Below, piece by piece: positions 1,695-55,840 of a DNA stretch of 64,000 bases. The stretch covers positions 2,285,332 to 2,349,331 of the forward strand of contig NZ_CP058215.1 of the NCBI RefSeq assembly GCF_013388255.1. Direction: 5' to 3'. Both the position numbers and the translations under genes were made by a program. Source of the stretch: Methanolobus zinderi. Its GTDB lineage: Archaea; Halobacteriota; Methanosarcinia; Methanosarcinales; Methanosarcinaceae. The notes under the pieces were generated by a model. That model saw only the letters and a list, made by a program, of their open reading frames with translations. It ran no database searches and was not told the DNA's origin. Positions within the stretch are counted from its first letter, which is position 1. The number at the start of each line of letters is the position of its first letter.

Positions 1695-3293
1695 TTATTT
1701 TTCCACCAGCTTCCTGTCCGACAGGCCAACCGTTGACACCAGCCCCACCAGGGCCAGGAAGATCAGGAAAGCTATCCCTACCTTAAAGGCCTGGGTCCGG
1801 TCAGCAGCATAAATATCCATGATCTCTGCTTTTAGTTCTGCATCCGCATCTGTTGTTTGCAGCCAGTTCTGTATCTGGGTGTCCGAGACCAGTTGTACAC
1901 CATCCTGTACAGCCGCGTTGAGTTCCGGTTTATATTGCTGTGGAATCGCAGTGCTGTCCTCTATACTTACCGTCAGACCTGTCATCAGAGTACCAATCAT
2001 TATAGTACCCACCAGAGCTACACCTATGGAGTTGCCAAGCTGTTCGAAGGTGCCGGTAATACCTGCGGTTTCAGGAGTCTCGTGCTCGTCGACCGAGGAG
2101 TAAATGAGGTTCAAGATCTGGGAAGTCACCAGTCCTATACCTGCACCGAACACAACCCCATAGCTCAGGTCCGATGGCTGTACATCCGGTTTCACAGTTG
2201 CTGCCACGATCCCAAGACCAAAGATGATCAGCAAAAATCCTGCCTGGATGATGCGCTTTGCTATGAACCTGGCTGTCAGTCTGGCCCCTACTATGGCAGC
2301 CACCAATACTGCTGCCGACAGGGGAAGAAGTGCAAAGCCCGTCTGCATTGCAGTGAACTCGAAGGTAAGCTGCAGTAGCAGTGGGAAGGTAAAGAGAAAG
2401 GCAGCAGTAAGGCCCATCTGAAGACTACGGACAAAAAATCCGGGGAAAAGGCCGGGTACATTGAAGAGCGAAGGTTTGAACAGGCCATCGCCACCGGTCC
2501 CCTCCTGCCGCTTTTCCCACCTGAAAAGCAACATCAGCAATAATATTCCAAGTCCGATAAGGACAGGGGTAATGGAAAGGCCAAAAGGAGCGATTTCAAA
2601 AGGTCCGATCACAAAAGGCTGCTTGGCAAGCCAGAATCCGTAGACCTGTCCCAATAGAATTCCCAGGACAATGGAGAAAAGGCTCAGAACGGACAGGAAT
2701 GAGCCTGCAAAATCAAACTTCGGCTTTCCTTCCATCGGCAGATCTGCCTTGATGCTTCTGCTAAGCACCAGCACCGAGACCACTACCAGCACCTCTAGCA
2801 GGAAAGCCCAGCGCCAGGTATGAAATGTTGTCAGGTAACCACCCACGATTGGACCTACAGCCGCTCCCACAGCACCGATAGCACTGACTATGCTATAGGC
2901 AAAAGCCAGATCCTTTCCCTGATATTCGTCCCTCAGCAGGGTCTGTATATTGGGCAGCATCAGTGCTGATCCCAGACCTTCGATAACAGACCAGCCTATC
3001 AGTAATGTGCCCAGTCCCTGACTTATGGAAGCAGTGAAAGTGCCTATACCGAAAAGTATCGTACCAATCAGAAATGTCCTCTTCTTGCCCAGAATGTCAC
3101 CCAGTTTACCACCGATGAGTATGAACGATGCCATGACAAGTGCATAGATCGAGATAGCTCCCTGGATACCGCTTACAGTGGTGTCCAGATCTTCGATCAA
3201 AGCCGATATGGACACGTTCATTATCGTTGTGTCGATCACAATAATGAACATCGCCATTGAAAGTGTGATCAGCACCGACCATTTCTTCATCAT
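1695..3293 (-). CDS. MFS drug exporter, DHA2 (EmrB/QacA) type, 14 TM
   Basis: The protein has 532 residues, typical for 14-helix drug:proton antiporters of the EmrB/QacA subfamily. The N-terminus carries the family signature VIDTTIMNVSISAL in helix 1, followed by the motif GGKLGDILGKKRTF between helices 2 and 3 and the antiporter motif region AIGAVGAAVGPIVGGYL in helix 5. The start ATG at 3293 has GGAGG seven bases upstream. The family exports lipophilic compounds using the ion gradient; the substrate is not predictable. The gene stands alone between divergent or unrelated genes and has no MarR/TetR neighbour. A long loop near residues 455-490 precedes the last helix. Confidence 0.88.
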   Translation of the reverse strand: MMKKWSVLITLSMAMFIIVIDTTIMNVSISALIEDLDTTVSGIQGAISIYALVMASFILIGGKLGDILGKKRTFLIGTILFGIGTFTASISQGLGTLLIGWSVIEGLGSALMLPNIQTLLRDEYQGKDLAFAYSIVSAIGAVGAAVGPIVGGYLTTFHTWRWAFLLEVLVVVSVLVLSRSIKADLPMEGKPKFDFAGSFLSVLSLFSIVLGILLGQVYGFWLAKQPFVIGPFEIAPFGLSITPVLIGLGILLLMLLFRWEKRQEGTGGDGLFKPSLFNVPGLFPGFFVRSLQMGLTAAFLFTFPLLLQLTFEFTAMQTGFALLPLSAAVLVAAIVGARLTARFIAKRIIQAGFLLIIFGLGIVAATVKPDVQPSDLSYGVVFGAGIGLVTSQILNLIYSSVDEHETPETAGITGTFEQLGNSIGVALVGTIMIGTLMTGLTVSIEDSTAIPQQYKPELNAAVQDGVQLVSDTQIQNWLQTTDADAELKAEIMDIYAADRTQAFKVGIAFLIFLALVGLVSTVGLSDRKLVEK

Positions 3294-3466
3294 AGCAAAC
3301 CCTCCTACCCGGTATGCACCTGAATCAACTGAGAATCAAAACCCAGTTCATTCAGACAAGCCAAAACCCAAATCCCCATTAGTTGTTTATATTCTGCAAG
3401 TTTAGACTTTTTGACACTTAGTTACGTATCGCAATTCAGTAGTATTAATCATCGTCCATGTAAACT

Positions 3467-3850
3467 TCAGTCAGTCCCGAAAGCCTCCTTGGTACCTGGC
3501 AACATAACGTAGATCAGGACCAGGGCATTCAGTATCACCGAGGCGTTCACATCATACCACGAGCCGCCTGTAATCAGTATAATGAAATCGAAGCTCAGGT
3601 TCATGACTGAGAGAAAAGCAACGAACATCCACCCCTGTGGATCTACCTCCCAGAGCATCCTGGCTACCCAGAACCAGATATATGCCAGCAGGCCGTAGAG
3701 CAGAGCGTACCACAGATTGAAAGTACGTATGTCCAGAGGGCCTATAAAAGGCAAAAAGCCCAGAAAACGAAGTGTTATGATAACGTTCAATACAAATAAG
3801 ATCCCGGCCAGGATTGCCAGGATCGTCACACCTATCGGCCTATTTTCCAT
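3467..3850 (-). CDS. small four-helix membrane protein
   Basis: The protein has 127 residues with four predicted membrane helices: about 8-28, 44-66, 75-92 and 100-118. The first helix begins right after ENRPIGVTILAILAG, a start common in small archaeal and bacterial integral membrane proteins related to DUF2127. The loop WEVDPQGWMFV between helices 2 and 3 is the most distinctive hydrophilic element. A GGGAG-like site precedes the ATG. It lies 37 bases downstream of the lipoprotein gene on the same strand, so the two are probably cotranscribed. No catalytic motif is visible and I do not assign a function. Confidence 0.6.
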   Translation of the reverse strand: MENRPIGVTILAILAGILFVLNVIITLRFLGFLPFIGPLDIRTFNLWYALLYGLLAYIWFWVARMLWEVDPQGWMFVAFLSVMNLSFDFIILITGGSWYDVNASVILNALVLIYVMLPGTKEAFGTD

Positions 3851-3887
3851 TCATTCCACTCCCTTACACTCTTTAAAAGAAAGGATT

Positions 3888-4430
3888 TTATTGTTCCTCT
3901 CCCCTCTGGAATTCTCTGGAAAATGACTGCTCAACTGTTCCTGATTCCGTATTAAAGAACATGGTCCCTTCCATGGTCCATACAACTTCCCCTTCCGTCA
4001 CGGCACCGAGGATTGCTGCCGGTGCTGTTGAAACTGATCCTACAAAGTTTGTTGTCGTTTCTATTTCTTCATCCGGTGGTATCTCAATAGGTTCCTCAAA
4101 GGTCCCCTCTCCCATTCTCACATCGTTAGCGTAGATATCATATTCCATTCTTTCAAGTTCCACCGTAGTATCCCCGGGATTATATACAGCAAAGGTCAAA
4201 GTCAGATCGACCACATCCCTGCTGATCTCATTTACCTCGATGCCCCTGATCCGCAGTTCCGTATCTCTTACAGCCTGAGCGCTCTCTTCTATATTCATAT
4301 CTTCCTGTTCAGTCTGATTTGCCCCGGTATCATTATCTACTGGCTGGTCCTCGGTATCTGTTGACGTACATCCCATAGCCATGAACATAACAAACAGTAT
4401 TATAAACAGTATTATCAATCGCTTTATCAT
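3888..4430 (-). CDS. lipoprotein with LEA-14-like (LEA type 2) domain
   Basis: The protein has 180 residues. Residues 1-20 form a hydrophobic signal ending in the lipobox MAMGC, so Cys21 is the predicted lipid-anchored N-terminus outside the cytoplasmic membrane. A Thr/Glu/Asp/Gln-rich linker (22-50) follows. Residues 55-175 look like a late-embryogenesis-abundant type 2 beta-sandwich: RIRGIEVNEISRDVVDLTLT, then YNPGDTTVELERMEYDIYAN and a conserved turn around FEEPIEIPPDEE. Such domains are linked to desiccation or osmotic stress in other organisms. This agrees with the neighbouring stress genes, but the actual role here is inferred only from the fold. Confidence 0.68.
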   Translation of the reverse strand: MIKRLIILFIILFVMFMAMGCTSTDTEDQPVDNDTGANQTEQEDMNIEESAQAVRDTELRIRGIEVNEISRDVVDLTLTFAVYNPGDTTVELERMEYDIYANDVRMGEGTFEEPIEIPPDEEIETTTNFVGSVSTAPAAILGAVTEGEVVWTMEGTMFFNTESGTVEQSFSREFQRGEEQ

Positions 4431-4850
4431 AAACTAACCCCACTTATTGAATAGTCTTGTTTAACTAAACCGGGCCCGTATCCGGTGAAAAGTACTATGA
4501 AATACAAAGAAGGAATTGATCTGGCAATTGAACTTGTATCCATCGAAAATCACCTTTTAGGCCCATAAAAGAAATTAATATCCGGATTTAAATCATTGCA
4601 GGAAACTTTAGTCCGAATTAACCGATAGATGTGCCACAATAGAGAAAACAGAATATATCAGAGCATAGTACATCCAGTTCATATTCAGAATTATTATATA
4701 CACAGGCCTGATTTCATCCATACTAAAGTTTCTTACGCTTTTATATGCCTTCCCAAAAGATATTAAAATGCATTAAAACGCCCATGCAGCTTAGATGCCT
4801 GCATCAGATAATCAATATAGCAGATAGAAATCTGCTGTAAAGGGGTTTCA
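4431..4850. promoter_or_regulatory. 420-bp divergent promoter region with leader hairpin
   Basis: This gap separates the lipoprotein gene (minus) from the LURP-like gene (plus). A TATA-like TTTATAT at 4740-4746 would give a leader of about 80 bases for the plus gene. That leader holds a perfect hairpin at 4819-4836 (AGCAGAT, loop AGAA, ATCTGCT), just before the GGGG ribosome site. A 10-base inverted pair, GAAACTTTAG at 4602-4611 and CTAAAGTTTC at 4723-4732, flanks the middle. I see no convincing gene or tRNA in it. Confidence 0.4.
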
Positions 4851-5426
4851 ATGCTCAGGAGAAGAAGGGAAAGGTCTGGAGGCCCTGGTGTGCTCAGAAG
4901 CAGAGCCACACCTGAAGCCACCGGGGAAGGAGAGCACCTCGGCACACGATTCAAAGTCCTCCAGCGTTTTTTTACAATTGGGGACCGCTTTTTTATAGAG
5001 GATGAACACGGTAACAGAGCATTCCGAATCGAGAACAAGGTACTTCGCTTGCGCAAGACACTGAAGTTCCAGGATCTTGATGGTAATGATATCTACAAGA
5101 TACAGGAGAAAGTGGCACGTATACGCGATACCATGGAGATCGAGAGTGATGGCCATACTGTTGCAAAGGTTCATAATGCACTTATCACACCGCTGCGTGA
5201 CCGCTGGAAGGTCTCCGTTACAGACGGCGAGGATCTGACGGCTAAGGGCAATATCCTGAACCATGAATATAAGATCATGAGAAATGGCCGGGTCATCGGA
5301 GAGGTTTCTAAAAAATGGTTCCGTGTCCGTGATACATATGGTGTGGATGTGCACGACGGTGAGGACGCCCTGCTTATTCTTGCAATTACTGTGGTCATTG
5401 ATACAATGGCACACAAAGGACGATAA
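4851..5426 (+). CDS. LURP-one-related (LOR) family protein
   Basis: The protein has 191 residues. After a basic, Gly-rich 30-residue lead it shows the LOR/tubby-like pattern of short antiparallel strands: FTIGDRFFIEDEHGNRAF, VLRLRKTLKFQDLDGNDIYK, and near the end YGVDVHDGEDALLILAITVV, the single hydrophobic helix that closes the barrel. Relatives in plants and bacteria may bind membranes or phospholipids, but no biochemical activity is established for archaeal members. GGGG precedes the ATG by five bases. It is 12 bases upstream of the HdeD-like gene, so the two form an operon of probable envelope or stress function. Confidence 0.72.
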   Translation: MLRRRRERSGGPGVLRSRATPEATGEGEHLGTRFKVLQRFFTIGDRFFIEDEHGNRAFRIENKVLRLRKTLKFQDLDGNDIYKIQEKVARIRDTMEIESDGHTVAKVHNALITPLRDRWKVSVTDGEDLTAKGNILNHEYKIMRNGRVIGEVSKKWFRVRDTYGVDVHDGEDALLILAITVVIDTMAHKGR

Positions 5427-6165: not shown

Positions 6166-7185
6166 ATGAGAACCATAGACTGGAATGACGAATCAAATTC
6201 TATAGTTATGATAGACCAGACGCTCCTTCCTGTGGAGTACAGGGTGATCGAATGTAAGACACTTGCTTCGCTCTGTGAGGCGATCAGATCCCTGCGCGTA
6301 AGAGGAGCACCCGCACTAGGGGCTGCCGGAGCCTTCGGAATAGCTCTTGCAGCAGAACTGAGCAGTGCGGATGATATGGATGGTCTGACAAGAGACCTGA
6401 AGGTAGCGGCAAAGACAATCAAGGCTACCCGACCCACTGCGGTAAATCTTGCGTGGGGAGTGGACAGGACCATCAATGCGATCTCGGATGCATATGATGT
6501 TGATGGCATCAAGGACATTGTACTTGCCGAAGCAAAGAACATAGCTGACGAAGATGTGGAGACAAACAAAAAGCTCGGGAAGCATGGAGCAAAGCTGCTG
6601 GAAGACGGGGACACTGTGATGACACACTGCAATGCCGGAAGGCTGGCATGTGTAGATTGGGGTACCGCACTTGGGGTGATCCGTTCTGCGGTTGAAGCAG
6701 GCAAGGATATCAATGTCATTGCCTGTGAAACAAGACCCCTGAACCAGGGTGGCAGGATCACTACCTGGGAGCTTATGCAGGACAATATAGATGTGAGACT
6801 TATAAGTGATTCAATGTCAGGGCACGTCATGAGCAAGGGAATGGTTGATAAGGTCATAGTGGGTGCCGACAGGATCACAGGAGATGCGGTATTCAACAAG
6901 ATAGGAACCTATACTCACTCGGTGCTCGCAAAAGAGCATGAGATCCCATTTTATGTGGCAGCCCCGATATCAACCTTCGATCCCGACAACTGGGAAGATA
7001 CTGTTACCATCGAGCAGAGGGATGCAGATGAGCTACGCTTCTTTAAGGATGTGCAGATCGCCCCTGCGGACGTGAAAGTGTACAATCCGGCATTCGATGC
7101 CACACCCATGGAGAATGTGACCGCTGTTATCACAGAGAAAGGAGTATTTCATCCACCCTTCCTGCTTGACGAGGTCATTGTGTGA
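6166..7185 (+). CDS. mtnA: S-methyl-5-thioribose-1-phosphate isomerase
   Basis: The protein has 339 residues, the usual length. It belongs to the eIF2B-alpha/beta/delta-like fold, but the MtnA signatures decide the call: THCNAG with the catalytic Cys155, ETRPLNQGGRITTWEL, and VGADRITGD with the catalytic Asp235, followed by NKIGTYTHSVLA and FYVAAPISTFD. It converts the ring form of methylthioribose-1-phosphate to the ribulose form, for methylthioadenosine or 5-deoxyribose-phosphate salvage. No other methionine-salvage gene is adjacent. There is no clear ribosome site; a TATA-like run about 30-40 bases upstream suggests a very short leader. An initiation-factor paralogue is less likely because both catalytic residues are present. 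Confidence 0.9.
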   Translation: MRTIDWNDESNSIVMIDQTLLPVEYRVIECKTLASLCEAIRSLRVRGAPALGAAGAFGIALAAELSSADDMDGLTRDLKVAAKTIKATRPTAVNLAWGVDRTINAISDAYDVDGIKDIVLAEAKNIADEDVETNKKLGKHGAKLLEDGDTVMTHCNAGRLACVDWGTALGVIRSAVEAGKDINVIACETRPLNQGGRITTWELMQDNIDVRLISDSMSGHVMSKGMVDKVIVGADRITGDAVFNKIGTYTHSVLAKEHEIPFYVAAPISTFDPDNWEDTVTIEQRDADELRFFKDVQIAPADVKVYNPAFDATPMENVTAVITEKGVFHPPFLLDEVIV

Positions 7186-7279
7186 AGGCACAATCTTTTA
7201 AACGATTAAGTACATGAAGGGCAACAAATAATTAAGAAAACACCGATATATTAGTGATAATAAACTATACGGAGATAAC

Positions 7280-7459
7280 ATGGCAAAAAAGAAATCAGGC
7301 GGCAGCGGACTTATGTCATCCGCAGGTCTTATGCGTTATTATGAGGCCGACAAAAGAGCAATACACGTTGATCCGAAGACCGTTATCGTTTCAGGCATAG
7401 TGATAGGCCTGTCAATACTCGTATTGAGTTCTTACTTTGGAATGTGGCCTCTTCCCTGA
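7280..7459 (+). CDS. secG: preprotein translocase Sec61-beta subunit (SecG-like)
   Basis: This short reading frame encodes 59 residues. It has a basic, Gly/Ser-rich N-terminus (MAKKKSGGSGLMSSAGLMRY), the archaeal Sec61-beta signature YYEADKRAIHVDP, and one C-terminal membrane helix (about 34-52). It is the small tail-anchored subunit of the SecYEbeta channel in the cytoplasmic membrane. GGAG lies six bases before the ATG. Its neighbours include SRP19 on the other strand, and SecF/SecD lie about 23 kb away. The length and all three features agree with the family, so the call is firm. Confidence 0.93.
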   Translation: MAKKKSGGSGLMSSAGLMRYYEADKRAIHVDPKTVIVSGIVIGLSILVLSSYFGMWPLP

Positions 7460-7528
7460 GAGTCCATTTCATATCTTTTCTGATACTTCGCACCTTGATT
7501 TAGTATATAAATTGTAAAACGTGGAAGT

Positions 7529-7816
7529 TTATTGCCCACGTATTTCTTTAATCTTAGAAGATATCTTTCTGGACAGAACAGTCTTAGGAGCAGTATCGTC
7601 TATAAGAACCCTGCCACTGGATTCCCACCAGGATTTTGGGTAGGCTTTATCGGCTTCTATTTCCGGGTTGAGTCCCAGTTTTTCAGCCGCAAGATTAATT
7701 TCCTTGACTGTCGGCTCTTTAATGGATGTCTTTCGTGAGATTATGCGCCCCTTGCTTCTTGACTTGTTTCTGTCAATATATGCAGGCCAGATAACGAGTT
7801 TTCCCTTTTCCTTCAT
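7529..7816 (-). CDS. srp19: signal recognition particle protein SRP19
   Basis: The chosen start gives 95 residues. The family pattern is clear: KLVIWPAYIDRNKSRSKGR at the N-terminus for 7S RNA contact, then IKEPTVKEINLAAEKLGL, and YPKSWWESSGRVLI, the aromatic strand before the basic tail. SRP19 binds SRP RNA and prepares it for SRP54. In-frame ATGs also occur at 7822 and 7843; none has a good ribosome site. I chose the ATG giving MKEKGKLVIWP because related proteins begin a few residues before the IWP motif. A TATA box at about 7900-7908 is shared in opposite directions with the next gene. Confidence 0.9.
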   Translation of the reverse strand: MKEKGKLVIWPAYIDRNKSRSKGRIISRKTSIKEPTVKEINLAAEKLGLNPEIEADKAYPKSWWESSGRVLIDDTAPKTVLSRKISSKIKEIRGQ

Positions 7817-7923
7817 CAACATGGAGCATAGATTGGAATTCATTCAATTTAAATTTGCTTGGGAAAATCAGTTTAGATCCGGGAACGATAAATCTTAAGT
7901 ATATAAAGTACTGCTTTAGACCC

Positions 7924-8211
7924 ATGATAGATACTCCAAGAGAGATTGAAGTCGAAAAAGCAGTAGAGAATTTCATAAAAGATGCCGGGAGGGACTTCAG
8001 AGTGTGTACAACCTGCGGAGGACCTGTTATTTACCCTATTGAGTACAGCACTCCGAAGGACACGGATCTCATAATTGAGATAGGAGGCAATACGCTATAT
8101 GTATCAAAGGTCCAGGCAAGATATCTGAGAAAGATAGAAATGAGGATGCTTGAAAGATACCTGATGTATCTTGAGAGAAAATCTAATAATCCTCATCCAG
8201 GGACTCATTGA
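7924..8211 (+). CDS. conserved small protein with CxxC motif, unknown function
   Basis: The protein has 95 residues from the ATG at 7924; a longer in-frame start would run through the TATA box (7900-7907). It shows an N-terminal helix (EIEVEKAVENFIKDAGRDF), then RVCTTCGGPVIYPIEY with a CxxC pair, a short beta segment (TDLIIEIGGNTLYVSKVQ) and a basic C-terminal helix ending in RYLMYLERKS. One CxxC alone could form half of a zinc or Fe-S site in a dimer. I do not recognise a named family. The last 29 bases overlap the end of the convergent DUF5806-like gene. Confidence 0.6.
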   Translation: MIDTPREIEVEKAVENFIKDAGRDFRVCTTCGGPVIYPIEYSTPKDTDLIIEIGGNTLYVSKVQARYLRKIEMRMLERYLMYLERKSNNPHPGTH

Positions 8212-8650
8212 TCCTGCGCAGGACATCAGCGATCAGCAACTGGACCTCGGTGGCATGTTCCTCGGGAATCTCACTGCCTTCGGTGTCCATTAATTGTTTA
8301 ATATCCTTGACCATTTTGTGAATGAGATTCAACATTTCTTCCTGTGTTATCAGCCCGGCATAGTAGGCGTAGAAGAATGTTGTTCCGCTGCGCTGAACTT
8401 TTTTCTTGAAGGATGCACGTGCGTTGGAAACCTCCTGCCGGGTATAGGTCTCGTCCATGAAGGGTACGAGTTCCGGAAGTTTTTCACCTATCCATGTCAT
8501 TTCAGACTGGTTGGACAGGTTCTTGAAGTCCGCACATAATCTTGCGGTCACCCATTCACGCCCAGTAAGATGAGTTGTTTGTTTTAGAAAGCGGGTGACG
8601 TCAGAATAACTCTTGTTGTCCATCTTTTTGAATTTGCGATATTTGTTCAT
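8183..8650 (-). CDS. DUF5806-like archaeal protein
   Basis: The protein has 155 residues, mostly alpha-helical, soluble and acidic at the C-terminus. The run YRKFKKMDNKSYSDVTRFL, then LTGREWVTARLCADFKN, and WIGEKLPELVPFM resembles the euryarchaeal family I know as DUF5806, found widely in haloarchaea and methanogens. No catalytic motif is visible and the function is unknown. The gene is transcribed toward the CxxC protein with a 29-base convergent overlap. It also stands back to back with the universal stress protein gene, the two starts being about 105 bases apart. Confidence 0.6.
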   Translation of the reverse strand: MNKYRKFKKMDNKSYSDVTRFLKQTTHLTGREWVTARLCADFKNLSNQSEMTWIGEKLPELVPFMDETYTRQEVSNARASFKKKVQRSGTTFFYAYYAGLITQEEMLNLIHKMVKDIKQLMDTEGSEIPEEHATEVQLLIADVLRRINESLDEDY

Positions 8651-50151: not shown

Positions 50152-51435
50152 ATGGAACGCTCAATCGAGGATATCCGCAAGAAGATAGATGAAAAAACGG
50201 CTGTAGTTATGACCTCGCAGGAGGTCTGCGATCTTGTTGAGAAGGGAGAAAAGGTTACCACAAAGGATGTTGATGTCGTCACCACCGCAACCCGAGCCAT
50301 TATGAGCGGAACCTATGCATTGCTTTCTTTTCCCGTAGAGTCACCTTTTAGTTTTAAAAGAGCATCCAAGGTGTTCTTAAATGGGGTGCCGGCACATGTT
50401 GGACCCTGCCCGAACGAAAGTCTGGGCATGCTTGATCTGATGGTTTTCGGTACCGCACATTCATATAAGGAACATGATTACGGAGGAGGACACCTTTTCA
50501 GGGACATGGTGGACAGAAAGACCATCGAGGTATCGGTCATCACGGACGAGGAAGATACCTTCCAGACAGCGGTCACACTGGATGAGATGCCGCATGCGAA
50601 GCTCTATGCCACAAGGCATACATTCAAGAACTATGCCGCATTCGTAAATTGTTCCTCAGAACCGGTGAGTACGATTTTCCATGCTACTGAATTTGAACCT
50701 GACATGCAGACAGCAACGTTCTCCGGATGCGGACAGATCAATCCCCTGAAGAACGATCCTGGTTTTACTACCATCGGCGTGGGCACAAGGATGCTCATGA
50801 ACGGTGCAGAGGGCTTTGTGATAGGAGAAGGTACCCGCAGCAGCCCTGAAAAACCAAACATGACAGGTTTTGCCGACATGCACACAATGGACCCGCAGCT
50901 TATGGGAGGATTTGCCACATCAGCCGGACCTGAGTGTATAGCTTCATGGGCCATACCCATACCGGTTGTAAACGACGGTGTACTTGATGCCATCACCATG
51001 ACCGATCATAAGGTAGCTATGCCAGTGATGGATGTGGACAGGCGGGTGACCATAAGTGACACCACATATGCGGACGGATGGCAGGATGTTGACCTTTCGG
51101 TAGAATTCAAACCCGCTTCATGCATAAGGTGTAAAGAATGCGGAGCTGCCGAAAACTGTCCCATGGATGCCATCTATTTCAAGAACGAGAGACCTGTGCT
51201 CGACAGGCATCTGTGTTTTAACTGCGGATTGTGCAGTATTATCTGCAAGGAGGATGTTTTCAGGGCAGAACTTGGGAAAGTCAGATTTGAAACCGACAAT
51301 AAACTGAATGAAGTACCCATAGTCCTGCGCCAGTCAGACCGCAAAAGAGCACTGGAACTTGAGGACAAGCTGAAGAAAATGATACTGGACGGTACTTTCA
51401 AACTGAGCTGGATGGTCGAGACGCTTCGGCCATAA
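50152..51435 (+). CDS. methanogenesis marker 16 metalloprotein (DUF39 + two 4Fe-4S sites)
   Basis: The protein has 427 residues. Residues 1-300 fit the DUF39 (COG1900) fold related to archaeal homocysteine-forming enzymes, with conserved Cys86 (HVGPCPNES), Cys167 (VNCSSEP) and Cys193 (FSGCGQINPL); in relatives such a Cys carries persulfide sulfur. Residues 320-370 hold two ferredoxin-type clusters: Cys324, 327, 330, 336 and Cys355, 358, 361, 365. The family is confined to methanogens. A sulfur-transfer reaction using electrons from the clusters is the best guess. GAGGGG lies upstream of the ATG. Its 3' end overlaps comE by 38 bases on the opposite strand. Confidence 0.85.
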   Translation: MERSIEDIRKKIDEKTAVVMTSQEVCDLVEKGEKVTTKDVDVVTTATRAIMSGTYALLSFPVESPFSFKRASKVFLNGVPAHVGPCPNESLGMLDLMVFGTAHSYKEHDYGGGHLFRDMVDRKTIEVSVITDEEDTFQTAVTLDEMPHAKLYATRHTFKNYAAFVNCSSEPVSTIFHATEFEPDMQTATFSGCGQINPLKNDPGFTTIGVGTRMLMNGAEGFVIGEGTRSSPEKPNMTGFADMHTMDPQLMGGFATSAGPECIASWAIPIPVVNDGVLDAITMTDHKVAMPVMDVDRRVTISDTTYADGWQDVDLSVEFKPASCIRCKECGAAENCPMDAIYFKNERPVLDRHLCFNCGLCSIICKEDVFRAELGKVRFETDNKLNEVPIVLRQSDRKRALELEDKLKKMILDGTFKLSWMVETLRP

Positions 51436-51967
51436 ATCTCTTAATTATTTCTTCAGGAGACATCTTAATGTTGGGAACCTCAGCATTCCCGGGCAGTGTT
51501 CTGACAACAACTATTCCATTATCGGTTTCCTGCAGTATTTTCCTTAAACCTTCTTTTGTATCGGTATCGTAAACTCTCAGGTTGCCCGCTCCTTCTGCCA
51601 CCCGGGTCAGATCAGTTCCCTGTGAGGTTGCAGTCGGCTGGTTACCTGTGGAACCGTATGCTCCGTTATCTATGATTATCAAAAGATAGTTTTCAGGTGC
51701 CTGCCATGCGATGGTTGCAAGACTTCCCATATTCATGAGAACCGAACCGTCTCCGTCAATAGCAATGATCTTCCTTTCGGGAAGGGATAGTGCAAGCCCC
51801 AAACCGATTGATGATGCGAGCCCCATGGAACCCAGCATATAGAAGTTGTTAGGGATATCGCATGTCTGATGCAGCTCCTTACATGGGATTCCGATATTAC
51901 CTACCACAGGGGCATCGATATCTGTAGCCTTTTCGGCTATCTCTGAGATTGCGTCCATTCGTTTCAT
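51398..51967 (-). CDS. comE: sulfopyruvate decarboxylase, beta subunit
   Basis: The protein has 189 residues. The thiamine-diphosphate motif is [20 protein letters not shown] with Asn101 in [14 protein letters not shown], the usual GDG-x(~27)-N pattern. ComE pairs with ComD to turn sulfopyruvate into sulfoacetaldehyde in coenzyme M synthesis. It starts in a four-base overlap with comD. The 3' end overlaps the convergent marker 16 gene. In Methanosarcina, as I recall, ComD and ComE are one fused protein; here they are separate. Confidence 0.93.
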
Positions 51968-52482
51968 GCCTGCCTCCAGAATGGAATCGGCAATAGCACC
52001 GCTACCGGTTTATTTTTGTTAAAAGCATCATCCATAGCTGTGATTATCATGTCTGTTGCGTCCTGCTTCGTTCCGGGCAGGAAATAAGGGATTTTGAGTG
52101 TCTCAAGAAGCGGAGCCGTAAGCTGACCCATGGGTACCTGGGCCACTATGGGCTCACCTTCCACACCCCGATGGCTCATTATCATAAGCAGGGGTATACC
52201 ATAAAGGATATCAAGCGATGCCAGTGCATTGATCGAATTTCCAAGACCGGAGTTCTGCATGAGCATTGCAGGCCTCTTGCCCCCCATGTAGGCACCGGCA
52301 CATACACCGACACCTTCTTCCTCACGTGTAACGGGTACGTGGATAATATCAGGATCCGAATCCACCATTGGAATGAGTTCCTTAAGATTGGCACATGGTA
52401 CACTGACAATAAAGTCGATACCCGCATCTTTTATACCCTGATATACTGCTTCAGAAGGTGTTATCACTTTTTGTGCAGACAT
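51964..52482 (-). CDS. comD: sulfopyruvate decarboxylase, alpha subunit
   Basis: The protein has 172 residues and is the pyrimidine-binding half of the thiamine-diphosphate enzyme. VIHVP-type strand and catalytic Glu lie in [20 protein letters not shown] (Glu54-56), and [20 protein letters not shown] is the typical second block. It acts with ComE in the cytoplasm. It lies seven bases after the Fe-S protein gene and overlaps comE by four bases, so it is fifth of six genes in the operon. Confidence 0.92.
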
Positions 52483-52489
52483 TGTCAGA

Positions 52490-53125
52490 TCACCATACCT
52501 TGAGGTCTATGGCTTCTATTCTTACATCTTTCCCTTCTACACCTACAACCATTCCCGAGTGGACCTTCTGCATCATACAATATTCAGGCACGAATTTCAC
52601 AGTCTGACCCACCTTCGGAAGCTTACCGCGGGAAACTTTGCCTTCAAAGGCAAGTATCATGCACAGACCTGCATCCTTGAACTCAAAATCATCCCGTCCT
52701 AACCTGTGCAGGGGACCCACCATATGAATTGTATAAATTCCAGGGTCAATATCTATCACCTTCGCAAAGTGTGTTACGGGACAGCCAAGCGGCCTGTAGC
52801 GCAGGAAATCACCGACATTTATCTCCACAGAACCGTCAAAGGGATGGATGAACTCCCTGCAGGAACATTCATCCTTCAGAGGAGCAAGCATGAAATCCGC
52901 CTCAAGGCCATCGATCACACCTATGATCTTCGCTTCCTCAGCAGAACTAGTACCACTTACAAGCTCGGATAACTTCTCGAAGTTATCCATGAACATTTCC
53001 CTTTCAAGAAACGGACATCTCTGGATATCATCCTTGCTTTTCAGTTGGGCGGCAAAGTCCCTGCACTGCTTAAAACCGCAGCTTCCGCAATTATATCCCG
53101 GAAGGAGGGACAGGATCTCATCCAT
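52490..53125 (-). CDS. 4Fe-4S protein in the coenzyme M operon
   Basis: The protein has 211 residues. Residues 10-40 are a complete four-Cys iron-sulfur domain of the RnfB/CdhD type: Cys13, Cys16, Cys21 ([15 protein letters not shown]) and Cys37. The remainder is beta-rich and has other cysteines ([45 protein letters not shown]). No transmembrane helix is seen. It lies two bases after the GTPase gene and seven before comD. It may pass electrons or sulfur in coenzyme M synthesis. The exact role is unknown. Confidence 0.75.
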
Positions 53126-53127
53126 TT

Positions 53128-53826
53128 TTATTCACCCTTGTACTCCATGAAACCGTCTATCTGCCGCAGCACACCCATGTGATGCTTGCGTGCGACCCTT
53201 GTCTCTCCCGTACACAAAGAACAGATGGCAAGGGGCGGATTGTAGCGAAGTATCATCTTGTCATGAACCTCAGGTCCCTCTGAGATCATCTCGGCAAGTT
53301 CGAATGCTCCCTTTCCTGTCAGGCCGTTGGCTTCCACAATGGAACATCCGGGATTGACATCAAGCACTCTTTCCCTGAAGACCTCACGCTCTGCCTGGGA
53401 TACAAGGTCTCCTTTTGTGGTGACAACTATGTCCGCGGTGGTAAGCAGCGGACCCACCTTCAGGGGAGTGTTCGGTCCCGTGGTGACGTCGATGACACAT
53501 ATGGCAAGGCATTCGTCGGGATAGGGTGCACAGCGCAGGCACAGACCTGCGGTTTCGTTGAGTACGATATCAGCATCCTCATCTTCGGCCCAGCCAAGCA
53601 TCTCCTCGGTATTGTAGATGGTGAAATGGTCCGGACACATGTCCTTTGCAAGACCCACATGCACAGGGATATCCAGTTTGGCAAAGCGCTGGTCATCATC
53701 TGTCCAGAGGCAATCAACCTTTACTACAGCTGGTTTCTTCCCATTCTTGACAAGTGATTTGATGGTGTGGAGCAGGACAGAGGTTTTACCTGAACCCGGA
53801 GTACCTGCAAGTACAACGAGTTTCAT
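53128..53826 (-). CDS. Cys-rich HypB/UreG-like (G3E) GTPase in the coenzyme M operon
   Basis: The protein has 232 residues. The P-loop is AGTPGSGKT (7-15). [20 protein letters not shown] follows, in the position of the G3E family's Glu-containing switch, with Cys96, Cys99, Cys106 and Cys110. The guanine-specificity motif appears as TKGD (137-140) instead of NKxD. Near the C-terminus CSLCTGE (Cys202, Cys205) and His215-His216 add more metal ligands. Family members insert nickel, cobalt or zinc into enzymes. The ATG overlaps the ABC gene stop by four bases. The client here is unknown. Confidence 0.78.
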
Positions 53827-54587
53827 GCAAGCTCCTCCACGACCTCCCCCTTGCGGATCGTTTCCCTGAGGGACATAAGCCAGTTGTCCACCTTGGCAAT
53901 CCTGCCGCAGACATCCTGTTCACCCGTGCTTGTGGTGATTATATCGACCATTCCACCGTTACGAATAACTATCCTCCGGGATGCCATCAAGGCAAGTACC
54001 GGATCATGGGTCACTACCACGACGATCTTACCCTCGCCTGAGAGCAACTGGAGCGCTTCCTGTTTCTTGATCCCTGCGTTCTCGATCTCGTCTATGAGCA
54101 CAACCGGGGAATCACTTATAACTGCAATATCCGCTGTCATGAGTGACCTTGACTGTCCACCACTCAGGACAGTGAGATAATTGTCGGCTGAGATTGGTTC
54201 TCCTGTCAGGGTGTTTGCAAGTTCTATGACCCTGTCCACAAGTTCAGGTCCCTTTCCCCTGCTGCGTGCATGCATCTGCAGGAAGTCGCGGACTGTCATG
54301 TCAGCCAGGAAATGCATTTTCTGGGATAATTGCGCAACAAGTTTCTTGCGGGGGTCAACACGGATCACAGCATCGGGCCTCTCTCCGTTAATGAGTACCG
54401 ACCTGCCTGTGGGAGTATCCCCCTGCGCAAGTTGTTCTATATCATCGATCAGTGTACTTTTGCCGGAACCCGTAGGGCCGACAATACCGATGATCTCACC
54501 TTTGCATATATCCAAGGAACTGACAGGCTCCGGAACACCGTCTTTGTCCACACCGCCAAGAATCGTAAGAGTTAGTTCTTCGTTCAT
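53823..54587 (-). CDS. ABC-type ATPase without permease, coenzyme M operon
   Basis: The protein has 254 residues. All ABC motifs are present: Walker [10 protein letters not shown] (37-45), signature LSGGQSRSL (141-149), Walker B VVLIDEIE (162-169) and the His switch [15 protein letters not shown]. There is no membrane partner gene next to it, so it is more likely a soluble ATPase working on proteins, as in SufC or AtwA, than a transporter subunit. It overlaps its neighbours by four bases on both sides. Joint placement with a G3E GTPase and an Fe-S protein suggests a maturation role. Confidence 0.8.
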
Positions 54588-55840
54588 ATTCTCACACCAA
54601 AAAATCCTTCCACTATATTCAAAATCTCATCTTCTGCGTTCGGGTCCTTTGCCGAAACCCCTGCTGACGGCTCGATCTGTCTTACAGGATAATCCTGCAT
54701 CAACCTCTTCTGTCCGCCACCGGTAATGTTCAGGACTATTCTGTCCTCGGGCAAGACATTACCCCCTTCTACCGCCTGCACAAGTGCGGCAACTGCCACT
54801 GCTGCGGCCGGGTTTATGTCTATTCCTTCCGTTTTTTCGAACAATGACTGTGAAGCCGATGCCTCGTCGTTGCTTACCGCATACATCATACCGCCGGTAG
54901 CATCGAGGGCATCCTTTACGCCTCCTTTTACAGAATAAGGAGGCTTTCTGTTGAAAAGTACATCATCGTACATGCCTTCCGGGCATGAATCCGAAACCAC
55001 ATCAGAATCACTCCAGAGGGAATAAAGCGGAGCACAGGGGATGTTCTGACCCAGATGAAGTACCGGAAGTTTTGAACCGAACCTGCCATCCTCTGCAAGC
55101 CTCATGGATGCTTCCCAGGCAGATATCCCGCCTGTACCGCTTCCTACAGCCTGGAAGTAGTGGTCGGGAAGTGTTCCCATTGTGAGAGCCGCATCAAGCA
55201 TTACAGTAGCCATTCCATCACGCCTGGCAACGTTCTTCGCCCCGCCCTCGTTTACAAAACCGTCTCTGGAAGCTATTTTTCCCGCAAGCGATATGGCATC
55301 GAAATAATCACCTTCCACGGTCACAAGACAGACAGATGGATTCTGCTCATGTGTGGTCCATAGCCTGTGAGCACTGTTTTCCGGCACTACCAGAAGTAGT
55401 GGCTGTCCTGTTATGGTGCATGCGTGAGAAAATGCACGTGCCGTATTGCCGGCAGAGGCCACAACCATGATCCTTTCCTCATTCAATTCCCTGATAAGCT
55501 GCATGGTCGGGAAGGATTCAAGATCCTTGAAAGTACAGGTCATCATCCCTGCATCTCTTTCAGGCCAGTATCCGTTGAAAGCGATCCAGAGGTCCTCAAG
55601 TCCGTACTCTTCCGCAAAACCCTGGCTCTTGTAGGTAATGGTTCGCCCTGAACCTTCCTCAATGATACCATTGACAGGCAGCCAGTCCTGATAGCGCCAG
55701 ATACCCGGCAGGTCAGCAGGATGCAGTTGCTTACTTGAATATTCGGTGCGTAAAAGTGCATCATCACCGTTCTTACAGTTCAGCGAATGGGGGCCATGGA
55801 CCTCCCCACATTTTGAACATCTGACAACGTATTTCTCCAT
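54584..55840 (-). CDS. cysteate synthase
   Basis: The protein has 418 residues. It is a PLP enzyme of the threonine synthase family: an N-terminal Cys pair region [15 protein letters not shown], the PLP lysine in TCTFKDLES (Lys105), the cofactor Asn in [10 protein letters not shown], and the phosphate loop [10 protein letters not shown]. Unlike threonine synthase it turns phosphoserine and sulfite into cysteate, the Methanosarcinales entry to coenzyme M. Position next to comD and comE supports this over threonine synthase. TTTATAAT (55866-55873) lies 26-33 bases before the ATG, so the mRNA is probably leaderless. Confidence 0.9.

Follow-up and report, generated by a model that had tools for sequence, protein, structure and literature searches.

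A predicted coenzyme M synthase of Methanolobus zinderi with a serine at the position of the L-ASST nucleophile

Main finding

The gene comF, which lies in a 64,000-nucleotide window of the Methanolobus zinderi genome (the whole stretch of DNA that was analysed), very probably encodes ComF (MMP16, COG1900d), the primary coenzyme M (CoM) synthase of this organism, which would use sulfide-level sulfur and draw electrons via its own clusters. Biological methane formation depends on CoM, and the final step of archaeal CoM biosynthesis lacked an assigned enzyme until 2019-2025. That MMP16 is the enzyme of this step is already known and is not new here. Interest now lies in the mechanism of sulfur transfer, for which the residues of note are Ser52, Cys86, Arg229 and the cluster cysteines.

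Published role of MMP16

A preliminary description of this DNA had put forward the marker 16 protein as the thiol-forming step from sulfoacetaldehyde to CoM, which is right and already in print (PMC12068725; White 2019, as cited there). The original hypothesis is credited to Perona et al. 2018, and E. coli carrying MJ1681 is described as converting sulfoacetaldehyde to CoM in White 2019, both as cited in PMC12068725. In that study (Chadwick, Williams, Shalvarjian and Nayak, PLoS Genet 2025), MMP16 (MA3299) was deleted in M. acetivorans. Without CoM, the mutant reached roughly 70% of the wild-type growth rate, showed a CoM-starvation transcriptome that was relieved by CoM, and was a CoM auxotroph in the absence of sulfide, with growth restored without CoM if sulfide was given. 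MMP16 was accordingly named ComF, the primary CoM synthase. The same paper reports that M. maripaludis MMP16 deletion mutants grow without CoM, that an L-ASST deletion has no CoM phenotype, that attempts to delete L-ASST and MMP16 together failed even with CoM, and that sulfide and sulfoacetaldehyde slowly give CoM in vitro. Growth without MMP16 is there attributed to a sulfide-dependent backup, comprising L-ASST and/or abiotic chemistry. This account bears on a point raised in the preliminary description, that a gene dispensable without external CoM would speak against the proposed role: M. maripaludis and M. acetivorans in sulfide-rich culture formally show such dispensability, and the published backup explains it. 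PMC12068725 also already reports the genome-wide co-occurrence, as well as gene clusters that contain the ATPase, GTPase and COG2000 genes discussed below. Our literature and structure search found no purified-enzyme assay or structure of MMP16.

The comF gene and its product

In a profile search, the comF product scored 522.6 bits against TIGR03287 (methan_mark_16, methanogenesis marker 16 metalloprotein) across model positions 1-391 of 391, where family membership was defined as a score above the curated cut-off of 363.95 bits over the full model. It also matched PF01837 (HcyBio, formerly DUF39) over positions 1-349 of 349, with 348.7 bits, and the HcyBio domain carries an inserted 2x[4Fe-4S] ferredoxin of the kind that defines MMP16/ComF. 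The eight cluster cysteines (Cys324, 327, 330 and 336, and Cys355, 358, 361 and 365) are each kept in 70-71 of 71 homologs. The initial assignment of a DUF39 protein with two 4Fe-4S clusters to exactly this open reading frame is thereby borne out. Features of L-ASST are lacking, as Ser52 replaces Cys54, there is no CBS match, and the ferredoxin is built in. The genes for sulfoacetaldehyde formation (comDE and cysteate synthase) adjoin comF, and mcrA is present in the same genome. A FastTree tree places the protein inside a monophyletic MMP16 clade with a support of 0.917. Its nearest relatives with a name come from Methanolobus sp. UBA118, at 99% over residues 1-268, and from M. halotolerans, at 85%. 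No relatives were found among viral contigs. A search of solved structures returned ferredoxin domains only, with no HcyBio structure found by sequence, and a structure predicted using the comF product and one close relative as input had a mean pLDDT of 29.9 and was discarded.

Table 1 Coordinates of comF, its neighbours and selected residues within the window
Feature	Position	Strand	Details
MMP16/comF, predicted coenzyme M synthase	50152..51435	+	427 aa, ATG start; HcyBio (COG1900d) domain with inserted 2x[4Fe-4S] ferredoxin domain
Ser52 codon	50305..50307	+	Position of essential Cys54 of L-ASST
Cys86 codon	50407..50409	+	Equivalent to MA3299 Cys95; MMP16-only GPCPNE motif; C 68/71, A 2, S 1
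Cys193 codon	50728..50730	+	Equivalent to MA3299 Cys202; C 64/71, S 7/71
Ferredoxin part, Cys324-Cys365	51121..51246	+	CxxCxxCx5C and CxxCxxCx3C
Tail-to-tail overlap of comF and comE coding sequences	51398..51435		38 bases; comE stop inside comF
comE, sulfopyruvate decarboxylase beta subunit	51398..51967	-	TIGR03846 228.1 bits, cut-off 221.5
comD, sulfopyruvate decarboxylase alpha subunit	51964..52482	-	TIGR03845 229.3 bits, cut-off 147.95
COG2000-type Fe-S protein, frequent in CoM clusters	52490..53125	-	PF04060 FeS 40.5 bits; COG2000 name after PMC12068725
CobW/HypB/UreG-type GTPase	53128..53826	-	PF02492 52.3 bits
ABC-type ATPase	53823..54587	-	PF00005 58.9 bits
Cysteate synthase (type-2 CoM pathway)	54584..55840	-	TIGR03844 593.5 bits, cut-off 324.9

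Gene neighbourhood and co-occurrence

A complete type-2 CoM cluster lies beside comF on the opposite strand (Table 1). The M. zinderi protein shares the TIGR03287 family, domain build and predicted reaction with the MMP16/ComF proteins of M. acetivorans (MA3299) and M. jannaschii (MJ1681), and its cysteate synthase and sulfopyruvate decarboxylase neighbours are also seen at MA3297-MA3299. It differs from these systems in that comD and comE are not fused and the cluster holds three accessory genes. The convergent layout and the 38 bases common to the 3' ends of comF and comE are exactly as originally described. While the Methanosarcina loci tested have a gap at this junction, a further 17 loci in two families (L004, L028, L030, L040-L042, L044, L046, L049-L053, L057, L061, L063 and L064) share an overlap of 32, 35 or 38 bases in the same reading-frame phase, and in six other convergent loci the two genes are instead 4 to 1180 bases apart. 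Because it recurs in these 17 loci across two families, the coding overlap is not a product of chance; it is an old feature that has been retained, and its conservation is a new detail. Gene positions suggest that the comE and comF transcripts may overlap as well.

The preliminary description had also suggested that phylogenetic co-occurrence with comDE be checked, and the two patterns agree. Across 158 genomes of one phylum, using hits over the cut-off for each family, MMP16 and comD are both present in 71 genomes and both absent from another 71, while 16 have one only (MMP16 alone in 3, comD alone in 13); Fisher's test gives p = 3e-27, a value that ignores relatedness. One apparent comD-only genome (G076) was rejected as such, as it contains a contig-end fragment of MMP16. 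Of the 74 genomes with MMP16, 71 also have mcrA; the three without it are incomplete assemblies, at 61-89% completeness. MMP16 runs in the same direction as the pathway genes comE and comD at 14 loci, most of which belong to other families of the phylum, and the fully mapped operons of this type have the order ATPase-GTPase-COG2000-MMP16-cysteate synthase-comD/comE. These operons represent a stronger linkage than the convergent layout of M. zinderi.

Two single-contig genomes with mcrA have the pathway genes and lack MMP16. In G056 (99% complete), the operon ATPase-GTPase-COG2000-cysteate synthase-comDE is intact except for MMP16, with approximately 22 bases between the COG2000 and cysteate synthase genes (L095, G056:C1:2183000-2199000; junction near 6770-6790), and such an operon in a single-contig genome is a new detail. 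G019 has cysteate synthase and comDE. The only HcyBio protein of each genome is a COG1900a protein. Both cases fit the published backup of ComF by L-ASST or sulfide chemistry, without proving it. A third genome, G003, retains mcrA with no more than truncated pieces of the comE, GTPase and ATPase genes, the last of them split (L107, G003:C1:607000-622000, 6873-8235), and has neither comD nor MMP16; this is probably a decayed CoM pathway in a natural CoM auxotroph.

Residue comparison with L-ASST

L-ASST (L-aspartate semialdehyde sulfurtransferase, COG1900a, MA1821-MA1822) shares the HcyBio domain with MMP16, and 33 residues are invariant in both. Aldehyde-to-thiol chemistry using ferredoxin electrons is likewise common to L-ASST and, by prediction, MMP16. 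L-ASST has an essential Cys54, C-terminal CBS domains and a ferredoxin (NIL-ferredoxin) on a second protein, whereas MMP16 is marked by Ser52, by the GPCPNE motif and by a ferredoxin part within its own chain, which L-ASST lacks.

Residues were compared in 71 MMP16 proteins of one phylum, a set that includes the comF product, to which members are 39-85% identical, and that has no member from M. jannaschii or the rest of the Class I methanogens. The Ser52 column, in a region aligned without gaps (IMSGT versus AMCSS), holds Ser in 71 of 71 MMP16 and Cys in 20 of 20 L-ASST sequences; its equivalence to Cys54 of MA1821 was taken from the motif and from the place of the residue in L076, where it is number 58 of the open frame prior to start correction. 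PMC12068725 remarks in general terms that conserved cysteines lie in different places in the two COG1900 enzymes, and what our alignment adds is a serine at the exact position of the L-ASST nucleophile. Arg155 and Tyr161, for instance, are invariant in MMP16 and L-ASST, and His114 is found in most, making these residues candidates for a common chemistry. The position of Arg229 is R/K in all 71 MMP16 proteins versus Gln in all 20 L-ASST sequences, and Arg229 may help to recognise the sulfonate.

Proposed mechanism

In the proposed route, cysteate synthase, an aminotransferase and ComDE would generate sulfoacetaldehyde, and ComF would add sulfide-level sulfur to its aldehyde carbon in the HcyBio pocket. 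The resulting thiohemiacetal or thioaldehyde would be converted to the thiol by two electrons passing through ComF's own two 4Fe-4S clusters. Reduction through the fused clusters is plausible, and we infer that these built-in clusters supply the electrons. The sulfur would not need to ride on a protein cysteine of ComF, as sulfide that acts directly or from a cluster is preferred to an obligatory persulfide because there is no universal non-cluster Cys and the L-ASST nucleophile is replaced by Ser. We tentatively suggest that the thiol is formed without an obligatory Cys persulfide, with Ser52 fixed at the ancestral Cys nucleophile position and sulfide, free or on cluster iron, attacking the aldehyde, a reading that we hold to be credible but somewhat short of probable. 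Since the wild type can grow with no sulfide added, which the mutant cannot, ComF must make good use of scarce sulfide or of another donor, and a sulfur carrier on ComF is for this reason possible. If the mechanism is as suggested, COG1900a and COG1900d would employ different sulfur-transfer mechanisms on one scaffold. Ser52 and the absence of a universal non-cluster Cys support and sharpen the published suggestion that the COG1900 enzymes differ.

Alternative explanations

An unlikely alternative, although the strongest of those considered here, is that MMP16 works exactly like L-ASST, with a persulfide on conserved Cys86 or Cys193 attacking the aldehyde. Such chemistry via a Cys persulfide was assumed in the preliminary description, which named Cys86, Cys167 and Cys193 as candidate sulfur carriers. 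All three residues exist in the protein as stated, and the conservation of Cys86 (68/71) and Cys193 (64/71) is high; parsimony on the FastTree tree gives only two changes for each, and none of the 71 proteins lacks both, as is expected by chance given 3 and 7 losses. In addition, the mutants reported for MA3299 do not include Cys95, described as a distal-loop residue, and some of the Cys200 and Cys202 mutants needed induced expression to rescue growth (PMC12068725). Against this, the invariant Ser52 occupies the place of the L-ASST nucleophile, and no non-cluster cysteine is universal across the 71 MMP16 proteins. Cys193 is Ser in seven of them, including that of L040, a close relative whose cluster is intact, and both Cys200 and Cys202 of MA3299 are dispensable in vivo (PMC12068725). 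Cys200 corresponds to Ser191 in M. zinderi; these equivalences, and that of Cys86 with Cys95, were drawn via two Methanosarcina homologs carrying the published numbers (L005 and L007). Cys86 is Ser in L067, where the operon is intact. Cys167 is variable, being Cys in only 7 of 71 proteins, and was rejected as a sulfur carrier. The assumption of a chemistry shared with L-ASST via a Cys persulfide is thus unsupported by these comparisons, and a direct attack by sulfide is preferred.

Two further explanations concern the wider role of MMP16. It is improbable that MMP16 belongs to a larger complex whose COG2000 Fe-S protein, GTPase and ABC-type ATPase supply the reaction with sulfur or metal or load either one. 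The COG2000 protein, present in 37 of 158 genomes, is always found with the GTPase (37/37) and nearly always with comD (36/37), and the three accessory genes directly precede MMP16 in the fully mapped co-directional operons. The COG2000/GTPase pair is, however, absent from 40 of 74 MMP16 genomes, including the sampled Methanosarcina, and lies away from comDE in Methanotrichaceae-like genomes; MJ1681 alone was active in E. coli, according to White 2019 as cited in PMC12068725, and a related GTPase/ATPase pair is found elsewhere in the M. zinderi genome beside a DUF1858/solute-binding protein. Very unlikely is the view that CoM is made mainly non-enzymatically or by L-ASST, the main task of MMP16 lying elsewhere, for example in coenzyme B thiol formation. 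The slow reaction of sulfide with sulfoacetaldehyde and the unobtainable double deletion would fit this view, as would G056 and G019, with the pathway and only a COG1900a protein, and a 2025 paper (PMC12713407) still terms the CoM step possibly non-enzymatic. It conflicts with the finding that the deletion strain needs CoM when sulfide is absent and is rescued specifically by CoM, with the lack of a CoM phenotype in the L-ASST deletion (all PMC12068725), and with the co-occurrence and clustering of MMP16 with comD/comE and cysteate synthase.

Related loci

The M. zinderi genome also encodes a true L-ASST (G000:C1:861580-862587), with a ferredoxin subunit gene adjoining, and this locus is a possible backup for CoM synthesis. 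After the L-ASST gene (L001 1447-4007, G000:C1 about 861526-864086) come a small gene for a ferredoxin, which is likely the counterpart of MA1822, and then a gene for a protein without a Pfam match.

The ABC-type ATPase gene adjoins that of the GTPase both in Methanolobus and in co-directional operons. The second GTPase/ABC-type ATPase pair of the same genome (L110, G000:C1:2243000-2251000, 2364-5303) adjoins a DUF1858 + SBP_bac_6 protein, and its GTPase is 49% identical to that of the CoM cluster. The pair may be a module of general use and not one specific to CoM.

In three genomes without mcrA and MMP16 (G150, G024 and G043; L104-L106), a cysteate-synthase-like gene adjoins comD/comE, and sulfoacetaldehyde may be made for another purpose in these organisms.
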